Below, piece after piece: positions 12,337 through 55,713 of a stretch of 64,000 bases of DNA. The stretch comes from Sinohyriopsis cumingii. Lineage: Eukaryota > Mollusca > Bivalvia > Unionida > Unionidae. Made by a program: the position numbers and the translations under genes. The notes beneath the pieces are model-generated. The model was not told where the DNA came from and made no database searches. It was given only the letters and a program-made list of their open reading frames with translations. Location: the NCBI GenBank assembly GCA_028554795.2, contig CM068825.1, positions 153,404,053 through 153,468,052 on the forward strand. Direction: 5' to 3'. Numbering within the stretch: position 1 is the stretch's first letter; each line of letters starts with the position of its first letter.

Positions 12337-12376
12337 AGCCCTTTTCAGGGCTACCCCAATACTCTAGAAAAGAAAT
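12337..12376 (+). terminator. Histone-mRNA-type 3' end, copy 1
   Basis: Stem AGCCCT, loop TTTC, stem AGGGCT (12337-12352), with 3' flank ACCCCA. About 10 nt later comes a purine-rich element, CTCTAGAAAAGAAAT (12362-12376), like the U7-binding histone downstream element. It begins 33 nt after the stop of the polyQ gene, as in replication-dependent histone genes. Confidence 0.75.
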
Positions 12377-12379
12377 AAT

Positions 12380-12637
12380 TATTAATTTGCCAATGTGTGT
12401 AGGTAGAGTAGTGTGAATATAAACACTAACTCTTTTATAAAAAATGTGAGGGTATGTGTTAGAGTGTTTGTAAGTGTTAAAGTAAGTTGGTGTGGATAGT
12501 AGATTAATATGATGTTTTTTTGGTGTTTGAGGTGTATATTTGGGGTTAGATTGGATTGCTTTGCGTATGTGGATAGTCTATTGAAGTGATTTATAAAAAA
12601 TTTTAAAATAGTAATGGGTAGTATAAAAAAGTGAGTG
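12380..12637 (+). repeat. Subterminal block shared by family-1 elements
   Basis: A non-coding stretch starting with the conserved GCCAATGTGTGTAGGTAG and AATATAAACACTAACTC blocks. It is also found beyond the stem-loops in B (17935-17970, 18820-18870) and C (54815-54860, 55618-55668). Homology to B ends at 12637. Confidence 0.7.
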
Positions 12638-13139
12638 GGCCTCGCCTATAATTTCTCAGATCAGCCATTCTGCTTTTTCAGGTGACGGGGGTGGGGGTAA
12701 GATTTCATCTGCTCCACCAGGCCAAGTGGGTGTTGTACCGTCTCCAAGAGTGCTTTAACGGTGCTCTGTTTTCCCACTCTGCATTCTTCTGTTTTCATTA
12801 TTTCTTCGTGAGTCTCTCTACATGACTGAGAATTAGTAGCAATAGTGGCGAACACACCGTATGCTTCAAACGCCGAGGTGAAGGAAAATTTCTCTCAGAG
12901 CTGAGATGCGAATGTGACAGAAAGCCCAAATTTTTTTACAAACTCAAAGATCAACAGTACATCAAAATAATTTTCTTCAAAACCGAATCAACACCAATTT
13001 TCAAAATCAACATTTTCTTTAAATATACCCTGCTAACGCTGTAATACAATCATGAACAAATTAACAGGGATGATTAGAATTTCCATGTTAGTTGTGTACT
13101 TGTGAACAGCTATAAAATTGCACACGGTAGTACTTACTA

Positions 13140-13500
13140 TTCAGTCTCAGGTGTACATCAACGCCATTTAGCAAATTCTTGTCTTGCAACCACATACACA
13201 GGTGAGACAATCCATCATTCTAAAATACGACGATCATTAAATTCTACATTGTGATGATCGTCAGCTTCTGTCAACTGAATACACTCAAGGTATCAGGTTT
13301 CCACACCTCAGATACATCGATGTGTTTATTCTTGGCTTCTTTTCCGTACGTCAGGAGATTATCGAGGTGAGCTCTATAAGGGTAGTTGGCCATGCTGCTG
13401 CTGCTTGCCAGTTTGTTGCTCAAGAACAAGTCCAATTTGCTAAAAAAAAAAAACAAATGCGTTAAATTCTTCCCCGGAGGCACTCTGGCATCTGGCACTT
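13140..13500 (-). pseudogene. Relic of a Polinton major capsid gene
   Basis: Two pieces on the minus strand match the MCP in order. One near 13225-13140 reads CMWLQDKNLLNGVDVHLRLN. The other at 13440-13298 reads LDLFLSNKLASSSSMANYPYR and continues like DNLLTYGKEAKN. Between them the frame is broken, and a polyA/T tract near 13440 replaces upstream sequence. The sequence is much more diverged from A, B and C than they are from each other, so this is an older, separate insertion. Confidence 0.75.
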
Positions 13501-13880
13501 ATACTGGGATTGTTTTAAAATTTATAATTCCAAATCTGTACTATGTCCAGACTGTATACTCTATTACACAAATTGCACCCGTCCCTGAAAATAGGCTCCC
13601 TTGAAGAGCTATTTGGTTCATTAAAATCAAAAACCGTGTGCACGAATTTATATTTCGTGTTTCTGACGAACAATCCCCCATTATAGATGTATCAACTCGA
13701 GAACTTGAATCGACAAAAGTGTGTGCGTGTGTTTACGTATTTCTCGGACTGAATCTATATTATGATTAAAAAGACAACCCATCGTACATAAATAAGCATT
13801 GTATTATAAATAAGCATTGTATTATTAACAACCATCATACATAAATAAGCGTTGTATTATTATTATTATTATTATTAAAT

Positions 13881-13989
13881 CCTACACACACACACACACA
13901 CACACACACACACACACACACACACACACATATATATATATATATATATATATATATATATATATATATATATATATATATATATATAT
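13881..13989. repeat. (CA)n-(TA)n microsatellite
   Basis: About 50 bp of pure CA dinucleotides (13881-13930) run into about 60 bp of pure TA (13931-13989). Confidence 0.95.
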
Positions 13990-16520
13990 TCGCTGTTTCC
14001 CATGTAAAACTAGATGTCTAAATAATCAGGTTTATTTTTGCGAGAATTCTTGTGATTACAAAGGGAGGGGTCTGAATTAGTCTTGTTTGCAAATGACAAA
14101 GAAGAAAAAAGCAAATTATCAGTTCTGTCTAGTATGTAATAGGGTTGTGCTTTTTTAAATATCAAATGCATGTTATGAATAGTAAGACTGTGTGATATGA
14201 ATGAATAACTGATCTTATATACTTTTAGATACTTAAGTGATAACAAAAAGTCCAGACATCCTAGTCAGGTCAAATTCAATCCATATATTTACTGGAACAA
14301 ATGGAATTACGGGAACAAAACTGAAATTACCTGAAGAAAAATGTATTAGTCGAACTTAAAACTTTAAAGTTAACAGCACTGTCCATGTAGAAGACAATTT
14401 TCAATATATTCATTTTTTGTGATGAGCATATTTGTGGCGAAATGAAATCATCTATATATTATTTATAATTAATTATTAATTAGCATAATGAATTATTAAT
14501 TAGCATAATGAATTATTTATACATTAGTCATGATGAGCTTTAGTTTAACAGATCCTCTAATTTGTTAATAAGTAGTACATTTAAGTTGTCGTAACGTGGA
14601 CACCTCATGGTGACAGTCATAGCTTAAATCAAGTTAGCCACTTCGATACTCATTATTTCCTTTTTTACCGAAATAAACAAATTTGTGACTTACTTCATCC
14701 CAATTGTTAAACAGTTTTGTACGCTGTACTGTAGCACACGCTCGTTTTACTCTCTCTCTCTCTCTCATGCACACGCATACACTTTAAGCATTATATGTCC
14801 CTCTAGGTGATTACACTATGCATTAGAGTAATTGGATTATTATGAGGATTTAGTAAATTTCAATCAACTGTAACGTCATCATTCTATGTATTTATTACTA
14901 CCATTCGCCACTTATCGGACCTTTCAAGTATATCCTAGTTACGTGATTACATGAATTGTATTTGAAATGACAAAGTAAGTAATTCACTACGAAAACATTT
15001 AAATCAAAGTTTATTTTGCTTTTTAATAATTTTCAAAAAACTTCAAATCATAATTTCCGCATATATAGTGATATATACAAGTTGTGTACTGTAAATACGT
15101 CTTGAGGTACTTGACACTCCAATTTTTCAGGTCACATTCACTGCTTTGTTTGACGCCATTACCATACAGATGTACTCACCGGACGAATGCTGCATCATGG
15201 ATAAATCACGTGAATTAATTAGCCAAGAGGCATAACAACCCTTTCCGAACAGGTCCCTAACAGATGAGGAAAATCTGGGAATTTGTTTTCTTTAAAAAAT
15301 CTAACCGTATGCAAAATACGAAACTGTAGAGCGCCACGTTAGCTGATTCTCAAATAATAATGGACATGGGGAGATAACCTTGTCATATACTTTAATACTT
15401 TGTCTCGTAGTTATAGCATAGTTATCAATACATTCAAAAAGCACCGGGCAACATAAAATATGACAAATGTAAGATTATATGTGACAAAAAGAGTAGTACA
15501 TTCATAATTTTAATTTCATATCTGGTTAAAAGAGTACATACGGACTGATACAGATCAAGATAAATAAGGAAATGTCGAATGCAGTGTTCACAGAATACCA
15601 GAGGAATTATCCCATGGAAGATGGAAGCATTGAATATAGATCGTAATTAAGCAGAAACGTGGTGTAAGAGCAAAATGCAAAATGTACTCACACTAATACT
15701 CCTGGCCGAAAAACTGTCATGATAAATAAAACACAATATGACTTAAATGTTACACTCTTTCTTATTGGTGGAAGTTCAAAATCAATTTTAATCCGCCCGT
15801 AGACTATATATAGACGCGAGACAAGACAAGACCAGATGGTGACGATGAATGTATATAGCTAGACTGCCATCTCAAATTGATGTTTGATCTGAACATCACG
15901 AATTACGTTATAGCCGTTTGAACGATCAAGAAAAGAAGAGAAGCAGCTGCCTTTGTCAGAATAAATGATGTGTCTCAGAAGAGGGTTAGAAAATGGAGGA
16001 GAATCTTGAGACGAAGAAACTGAAGAAGTGTGGTATGTGTTAAAATTTTTGGTTAACAAACCCAACAGCCCTTTTGATAGATACTTAGTTCTCTCAGAAA
16101 CAGAGATATTACTCCAATGATTACCGAAAATCAATATTTGTATGTATGTATCTGTCTTTGTCTATGGTTTGTCTTTCACGATTAATACTTAAACCCCCTT
16201 TTCACTCAGCTGTCTTGTGGTTGATAGTAAACTTTTGTGTGAGAGTAAAATAATTATGATTGTGTGTAATCACTCTTAGCCTTTCCATTAATGCTTATTT
16301 GTATGTGTGAGTATTCCTACCCTTTCTGGGATGATATTATGTTTGTGTTAGCCCTAGTCCTTTTTCTCTCCTTACACTCATTGCAGTATATAATTAGATT
16401 AGAGTGCATAGTGTTTGACTGCATCTCCCTCTTTTTACGCCCTATCCTGTTTTGGATAGTTGGTATGGGTGCTTGTCAGTCCAACGAGTGTTGGTTAGTA
16501 AATGTAGATGCAGGTCATTA

Positions 16521-54866: not shown

Positions 54867-54905
54867 ATTTCTTTTCTAGGGTATTGGGTAGCCCTGAAAA
54901 GGGCT
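54867..54905 (-). terminator. Histone-mRNA-type 3' end, copy 8
   Basis: On minus: AGCCCT-TTTC-AGGGCT (54905-54890), flank ACCCA, then CCTAGAAAAGAAAT (54880-54867). It lies 30 nt after the stop of the 54936 gene. Confidence 0.75.
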
Positions 54906-54935
54906 GTTGGTTTTTTGAACTCCAGATGCACCTAT

Positions 54936-55232
54936 CTAATGATGGCACCTTCCTGGCCTGGCGCCACACACGCATCTTCTTCCCCAGTCTCCTTTCACCT
55001 TTCTTCTTGGGAGTGCAGAGGCGGGATGATTGGCTTCAGCACCCCAATCCTCTGTCTCTGGTATCTTGTAAGTCATCCTCTCTCCTATTTTCTTTTCATC
55101 CTCTTCCCTCTCTCTTCTCTCCTCCTCTTCCTTCTTTATTCTTGCTTCTTCTACTATGGCTTTCGCGGATATGCGCCTGGCATATTCCAGGTGCATCTGG
55201 AGTTCTAGCAGTTTCACAATTCTGGTGTTCAT
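54936..55232 (-). CDS. E/R-rich coiled-coil protein with Cys/His C-terminus
   Basis: 98 aa from ATG 55232 (MNTRIVKLLELQ). Shorter E/R/K run than the B homologue (18066-18452), but the same tail with IPETEDW, PASAL and CVCGARPGRCHH. Its own promoter motif (55299-55330) and stem-loop flank it. Confidence 0.65.
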   Translation of the reverse strand: MNTRIVKLLELQMHLEYARRISAKAIVEEARIKKEEEERREREEDEKKIGERMTYKIPETEDWGAEANHPASALPRRKVKGDWGRRCVCGARPGRCHH

Positions 55233-55289
55233 TCTTCTGGTGGTGTTGATCAATCAACAAGGGTAGCTAGACTGCCGAGCGAGTTTCAA

Positions 55290-55390
55290 TTTATACTGAA
55301 AGCGCGGACGTGATGGAAAACATCCCCTTAAAAACATAAAATTGATCTTACCTAGATCATGACCAAAGAAACAACGCGCGTACCTAAAAG
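55290..55390 (-). promoter_or_regulatory. Terminal-cassette promoter of the 98-aa gene
   Basis: Motif copy at 55330-55299 (one base changed: TCC-ATCACG), then AGTATAAATTGA as TATA, about 55 nt before the ATG at 55232. A decayed second copy lies at 55390-55372. Confidence 0.6.
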
Positions 55391-55674
55391 AAACACTCAC
55401 TCACTTTTTTATGCTACCCATTCCTATTCTAAAATTTTTTTTCATTAATCACTTCAATAGACTATCCACATACGCAAAGCAATCCAATCTAACCCCAAAT
55501 ATACACCTCAAACACCAAAAAAGACATCATTTTAATCTACTATCCATACCATGTACGTTAGCACTTACTAACACACAATCTTATACACAAACACATACCC
55601 TCACATTTTTTAAAAAAAGAGTTAGTGTTTATATTCACACTACTCTACCTACACACATTGGCAAATTGATGGTT

Positions 55675-55713
55675 ATTTCTTTTCTAGAGTATTGGGTAGC
55701 CCTGAAAAGGGCT
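55675..55713 (-). terminator. Histone-mRNA-type 3' end, copy 9
   Basis: On minus: AGCCCT-TTTC-AGGGCT (55713-55698), flank ACCCA, then CTCTAGAAAAGAAAT (55689-55675). Confidence 0.75.

Follow-up and report, generated by a model that had tools for sequence, protein, structure and literature searches.

Histone-type 3' end signals behind the terminal accessory genes of a Polinton family in the bivalve Sinohyriopsis cumingii

The DNA analyzed here is a 64,000-nucleotide stretch of contig CM068825.1 of the bivalve Sinohyriopsis cumingii (hereafter the window), which holds three copies (A, B and D) of one Polinton family, and the small accessory genes at the ends of these elements are followed by signals of the kind that form the 3' ends of metazoan replication-dependent histone mRNAs. 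The signal stands on the sense strand shortly after stop codons, is conserved, and has the same layout as in the histone genes of the host itself. On this evidence, we consider it about 87% probable that the accessory genes end in genuine, host-matched histone-type 3' processing signals, whose transcripts would most likely be cut by the U7 small nuclear ribonucleoprotein (snRNP)/CPSF73 complex, carry no tail and be made in S phase. Such ends are generally taught as being nearly exclusive to replication-dependent histone genes.

The window was scanned for the 16-nucleotide (nt) hairpin with up to three mismatches allowed. Nine exact copies (6-base-pair (bp) stem, TTTC loop) were found at 12337, 16830, 18003, 18901, 32056, 33134, 54093, 54890 and 55698, the same nine that had been reported in an initial annotation of this DNA, together with a tenth match carrying three mismatches at 51744. 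Ten matches compare with 0.84 expected and were reached in none of 100 shuffles, and the reversed pattern had no match genome-wide, so a chance origin was rejected. The Rfam model of the histone mRNA end (Histone3, RF00032) recovered all nine sites with E values from 1.4e-9 to 8.6e-4, and four of them (32056, 54093, 33134 and 16830) passed its gathering score. The purine-rich downstream element that the annotation had described was likewise seen at 9/9 sites, so that the arrangement resembles metazoan replication-dependent histone mRNA ends in its 6-bp stem, 4-nt loop, ACCCA-like flank and purine-rich element, and differs from them in that the genes are non-histone and part of a mobile virus-like element. 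As also claimed, the window holds no histone gene, since tblastn with four core histones returned nothing below E 0.48.

Every hairpin follows a small terminal gene on its sense strand, at 19-47 nt past the stop codon. Seven had been placed within 50 nt of a stop; the proximity stands, and the count becomes nine of nine once decayed frames are included, the element copies being damaged, with broken frames in three of the nine accessory genes. The nine sites represent five gene classes, named after their first residues, in three element copies (lengths in amino acids, aa; terminal inverted repeat, TIR):

11953..12303, + strand: MCSK-class gene of copy A, 116 aa, stop 33 nt before the hairpin
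12332..12376, + strand: its histone-type 3' end, hairpin 12337-12352 plus GAAAAGA, Histone3 29.5 bits, below gathering
16865..17254, - strand: MASNQ-class gene of copy B, 129 aa, facing out toward the left end, stop 19 nt before the hairpin
16805..16850, - strand: its histone-type 3' end (site 16830), inside the left TIR, 35.6 bits, over gathering
18066..18452, - strand: MNTR-class gene of copy B, 128 aa, stop 47 nt before the hairpin
17978..18023, - strand: its histone-type 3' end (site 18003), 31.0 bits, below gathering
18945..19295, - strand: MCSK-class gene of copy B, 116 aa, stop 28 nt before the hairpin
18877..18921, - strand: its histone-type 3' end (site 18901), 32.1 bits, below gathering
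32097..32656, - strand: MTETQ-class gene of copy B, frame broken, placed by tblastn with the frame of locus L003, where it is open (190 aa); stop 25 nt before the hairpin
32031..32076, - strand: its histone-type 3' end (site 32056), 43.4 bits, over gathering
32876..33109, + strand: MWTD-class gene of copy B, 77 aa, predicted isoelectric point 11.6, facing out toward the right end, stop 24 nt before the hairpin
33129..33174, + strand: its histone-type 3' end (site 33134), inside the right TIR, 35.8 bits, over gathering
54131..54509, - strand: MASNQ-class gene of copy D, frame broken, placed by tblastn, stop 22 nt before the hairpin
54068..54113, - strand: its histone-type 3' end (site 54093), 37.1 bits, over gathering
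54936..55232, - strand: MNTR-class gene of copy D, 98 aa, stop 30 nt before the hairpin
54865..54910, - strand: its histone-type 3' end (site 54890), 29.9 bits, below gathering
55752..56129, - strand: MCSK-class gene of copy D, frame broken, placed by tblastn (90% over 125 columns), stop 38 nt before the hairpin
55673..55718, - strand: its histone-type 3' end (site 55698), 28.0 bits, below gathering

Two stem types occur, one based on a G-C pair (GGCCCT/AGGGCC) and one, in the MCSK and MNTR classes, on an A-T pair (AGCCCT/AGGGCT), the first pair being altered on both sides. The downstream element divides in the same way, reading CTAGAAAAGA at the five MCSK and MNTR sites of the window and CTCGAAAAGA at the other four. 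MASNQ and MWTD are the outermost genes and both face outward, and their hairpins in copy B, sites 16830 and 33134, are located where either arm of its TIR ends on the inner side. The nine are not independent observations, as they amount to five gene classes and these two sites are TIR copies of each other.

The same signal was then compared with that of the host. A Pfam histone search of the host genome gave 150 scored matches of 662 first-look candidates, many in tandem units of ~8.27-8.29 kb, and the one array unit that was read (L064) contains H3, H4, H2B, H2A and H1. All five gene types carry the hairpin, at 27-38 nt past the stop (19-47 nt in the window) and with 35.0-39.4 bits, and GAAAAG starts at +13 (H3, H4, H2B) or +14 (H2A, H1) after it, the same 13-14 nt as in the elements. 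In four of the five histone genes the downstream element is CTAGAAAAGA, identical in its ten letters to the MCSK and MNTR sites of the window. The element hairpins have a TTTC loop and mostly an ACCCA flank, the textbook metazoan form, whereas the host histone genes vary (loops TTTT, TTTA and TTTC; flanks ACACA, ACAAA, ATACA and ACTTT). Past the signal, element and host histone flanks are unlike by eye, which means that the two have the signal and its spacing in common and no long shared piece. That host histone genes carry this signal is also indirect evidence that the processing machinery exists in this species. In the H1 hairpin of the array unit (L064 6308), either strand of the stem is altered (GGTCCT/AGGACC), which offers a natural control for covariation within this genome.

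To the initial annotation's question of whether related elements have the stem-loops, the rest of the genome gave a uniform answer. A Histone3 search of it returned at least 75 matches (75 of 589,472 first-look candidates scored), and 48 of the 75 loci were read. All 48 proved to be relatives of the window elements, with 38-100% of each locus aligning to the window, and none contained a core histone by tblastn, so the possibility that these matches are host histone genes was rejected. Together with the window, the loci hold 108 strict hairpins, of which 85 are preceded, within 60 nt, by the stop of a same-strand open reading frame (ORF) of at least 50 aa, compared to 366 of 4800 random positions and to 5/108 on the antisense strand. 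GAAAAGA begins at +13 in 87 and at +14 in 4 of the 108, its exact form being absent in 17, against a background density of 306 in 500,398 positions, and the ACCCA flank is present in 88. These counts bear on the idea that the hairpin works as DNA, for instance at the inner TIR edge in replication or integration, as the position of sites 16830 and 33134 would allow: three of the five classes lie outside the TIRs, the orientation tracks the gene (85 sense vs 5 antisense), and the downstream element, at the spacing of the host, would be left without a function. We regard this explanation as extremely improbable.

Since the loci had been selected by a hairpin, the test was redone from the gene side. 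The gene ends numbered 64. Through 18 of these the locus itself had been selected, and the remaining 46, which include the window's own and lie in loci with a hairpin elsewhere, carry the hairpin in 46/46 cases (40 exact, 6 with one or two changes) and GAAAAGA in 44/46, at protein identities down to ~55%. Stems are fully paired in 54 of the 64 gene-anchored hairpins, and within classes the changes are mostly single. Column conservation was calculated for 105 of the 108 hairpins (three too near a locus end were dropped) in five similarity groups (n = 32, 26, 23, 15 and 9). It amounts to 0.99-1.00 for the hairpin, a value raised by the search pattern, to 0.95-0.99 for the downstream element, whose value is not so raised, to 0.82-0.96 for the 8-nt spacer between them and to 0.72-0.96 for the flanks, and the downstream element is more conserved than the preceding spacer in all five groups.

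The conservation data also address the view that the signal is a relic: an ancestral element would once have taken up the 3' end of a histone gene, copying of the cassette would have spread it, and it would no longer have a function. The left-end classes do have a common upstream motif (D18) and are alike well beyond the downstream element, which indicates that the signal did spread by duplication inside the element. In most of the five groups, however, conservation is highest in the hairpin and in the downstream element, with a more variable spacer between them, and the hairpin is retained at every one of the gene ends not used for selection, neither of which would be expected of a functionless relic; and, by eye, the sequence past the signal does not resemble host histone flanks. 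Loss of function after a single capture thus appears highly unlikely.

Exact matches to the hairpin core, ACCCA, eight free letters and GAAAAGA number 27,266 in the genome (13,456 and 13,810 by strand), and the reversed control gave 0. Judging by the loci that were read and by the distances among 100 listed matches, often ~0.8, 1.1 or 13-17 kb, we infer that nearly all of these are Polintons, which, at five or six signals each, would suggest at least ~4,500 element copies.

The core genes are organized differently. The histone-type signal was found in 0/18 of those tested (polymerase, integrase, capsid, protease and others). They had been described as ending with AATAAA instead, and this held in part: four of the 18, namely two protease copies, a CCHC gene and the capsid gene, have A(A/T)TAAA 32-333 nt past the stop, while the other 14 have none within 400 nt and thus neither signal. 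In five of the seven stem-loop genes tested, the 400 nt past the stop contain no A(A/T)TAAA. This distribution fits two putative expression classes without proving them. It also bears on a reading in which the signal is real and serves as a compact transcription stop or stability element, with many transcripts polyadenylated elsewhere and no link to S phase. Two of the seven stem-loop genes do have A(A/T)TAAA within 400 nt (in the gene before 18901 it lies 193 nt past the stop), the outward terminal genes would otherwise be read through the TIR into host DNA, and human histone genes with overlapping signals can take either route, as stated in PMC9756948. The five of seven without such a motif speak against it, and we consider this reading unlikely.

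Histone-type processing remains the reading we prefer, and its steps would follow the host pathway. According to PMC7026596, SLBP binds the hairpin, the U7 snRNP pairs with the downstream element and CPSF73 cuts 4-5 nt past the hairpin, leaving no tail. By analogy, host SLBP would recognize the stem-loop of an accessory transcript as it does on histone mRNA, and host U7 snRNP would pair with the downstream element, in which case the 5' end of U7 would contain UCUUUUCUAG or a close variant. The cut would most likely fall 4-5 nt after the hairpin, be made by the host U7 snRNP/CPSF73 complex and leave no poly(A) tail, and the accessory proteins would be produced alongside histone mRNA in S phase. 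The benefit to the element might lie in synchrony with replication, in avoiding poly(A) control or, for its outward genes, in a compact stop before the TIR.

Several observations weigh against this interpretation. All of its evidence is DNA sequence, and it comes from a single genome in which every locus was fetched via a hairpin. Five of the nine window sites fall short of the Histone3 gathering threshold (28.0-32.1 bits), and they belong to the two classes whose stem has A-T as its basal pair. The two-sided stem change is confined to the first pair and occurs between classes, ten of the 64 gene-anchored hairpins are not fully paired and show single uncompensated changes as in decaying copies, and the signal stands out little from its surroundings in the least diverged group (9 sequences). 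For the gene before 32056, AATAAA occurs in the spacer directly ahead of the hairpin. On the host side, an Rfam search identified no U7 gene (65 of 801,960 candidates scored), a U7 pattern search gave 16 places compared to 23 in the control, with 0/15 inspected being U7-like in the fold of the following 45 nt, and a search for the SLBP domain returned 0 matches from 14 candidates, with no control genome positive and with introns that may split the domain.

A broader proposal is that a whole Polinton lineage has placed its accessory genes under the host histone mRNA programme, so that their mRNAs would be tail-less, SLBP-bound and made in S phase, with synthesis or maturation perhaps at histone locus bodies and with timing matched to the copying of the element by its own polymerase, and would possibly compete for SLBP and U7; we give this about even odds. 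If true, it would offer a mobile element a route to couple expression to S phase and bypass the poly(A) machinery, and it could place a large load on host SLBP and U7, as at least 27,266 element signals would stand against 662 first-look histone-fold candidates and outnumber the host's own sites. A virus-like element with this signal on non-histone genes, in probably thousands of copies, would moreover be a natural tool for studying the signal's own effect.

A literature search at the level of titles and abstract openings, with most subscription journals outside its scope, returned no precedent, be it from Polintons, other viruses or transposons, for mRNA ends of the histone type. Each part is known by itself, and we know of no earlier case of their combination, Polinton accessory genes with histone-type ends, which is apparently new. 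A different tie between an animal DNA virus and histone biology is provided by the 'histoid' genes of adomaviruses, whose protein resembles a histone (PMC11071296); in the present elements the proteins match no histone, and the likeness lies in the mRNA end.

Self-comparison resolved the window into the three Polinton copies and one different element (C):

1..12637, + strand: Polinton copy A, cut by the left window edge; likeness to the other copies stops at 12637; inverted self-similarity to B and D
6314-7423: integrase-length ORF of copy A
11053-11613: Peptidase_C5-like ORF of copy A, weak (E 0.008, under the cut-off)
16527..33455, - strand: Polinton copy B, 16.9 kb, both ends present, ends AGTAGTTAAGTGGG
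16527-16854 and 33125-33455: TIRs of copy B, ~330 bp, 95% identical over a 335-column alignment
19853..21001, - strand: core gene of copy B, major capsid protein of 382 aa, its best relatives being longer
22739..23848, - strand: core gene of copy B, retroviral-type integrase with chromodomain (Pfam rve E 9.2e-14, Chromo E 1.1e-7), without histone-type end
27160..31182, - strand: core gene of copy B, family B DNA polymerase (PolB; Pfam DNA_pol_B_2 E 3.7e-42), without histone-type end
35949..50738, strand unassigned: element C, a different virus-like element between B and D, with 215-bp inverted repeats 99.5% identical and without histone-type end
53742..64000, - strand: Polinton copy D, cut by the right window edge, left end present, similar to A and B

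Copy B is flanked by AATGAC and AATGAT, equal in five of six letters, which fits a 6-bp target duplication, and it is without a ~1-kb stretch (protease region) that copy A has. Its polymerase is probably of the protein-primed, viral type. The capsid protein has 456 relatives, some labelled F54H12.2-like in oysters and a clam, F54H12.2 being a nematode Polinton gene; among the matches listed, the named relatives in protein searches included oysters, a clam, amphioxus records and one bacterial metagenome-assembled genome label. An AlphaFold model of an 85%-identical capsid relative, P0140 (mean pLDDT 68, pTM 0.70), gave the capsids of Sputnik, chlorovirus and iridovirus as best Foldseek matches (best E 1.7e-16, TM 0.5-0.6), with mavirus eighth, and the capsid protein is accordingly classed as a double-jelly-roll type. 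Pfam gave no capsid match above a cut-off, also in searches with six capsid relatives, and sequence searches of the PDB with three core proteins gave 0 matches. The combination of PolB, rve/chromodomain integrase, double-jelly-roll capsid and inverted repeats led us to file the family as Polinton. It resembles known Polintons/Mavericks (adintovirus-like) in these features and in the 6-bp target duplication, perhaps also in a C5-like protease (weak match), and is unlike them in the histone-type 3' ends of its terminal accessory genes. No packaging ATPase (FtsK/HerA type) was matched by Pfam among the subset of ORFs scanned, in which no search was aimed at ATPases. Searches of viral contigs with PolB, with the integrase alone and as an alignment, with the MTETQ alignment and with the hairpin pattern found 0 relatives, and PolB had one match in a phage collection, covering 5% of the query.

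Element C, which is young-looking, codes for an integrase (rve), a helicase of the SF1 type and an HNH endonuclease as well as for a double-jelly-roll-like domain. Among its ORFs scanned, no PolB was found. It has no Histone3 match at E <= 1 and thus serves as an internal negative control.

At least one further accessory class, MDVEY (L004), occurs in other loci. Pfam searches with the accessory proteins gave only matches under the curated cut-offs (best TAF4, E 0.00055), which were dismissed as artefacts of charged coiled stretches. The tails of these proteins are basic (net +3 to +11 over the last 30 residues in six classes); a histone-like nature was considered and dropped, since six of seven core proteins compared also have basic tails. 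The MTETQ protein has 19 relatives in the sequence sets at 56-91% identity, and its basic C-terminal part (PKR.RPSRAK, then GLGRGKG..QLK) is kept in most aligned relatives (L003 2019-2591; P0121-P0136).

The upstream motif D18, of the GCGCGGACGTGAAGGAAAACATCCCC type, precedes left-end accessory genes at window positions 17353, 18483, 54528, 54599 and 56162, among others, and looks like a common promoter element. By eye, the intergenic region between the divergent MTETQ and MWTD genes (window 32700-32870) contains a TATAAA together with ATTGG (inverted CCAAT) motifs, a composition that is common in cell-cycle promoters. Beside PolB lies a small gene with, by eye, two CCHC-like zinc knuckles (window 31315-31806), whose stop is followed after 32 nt by a polyadenylation signal, and a 54-bp repeat array (family D1) occupies window positions 33993-35613, past the right end of copy B.

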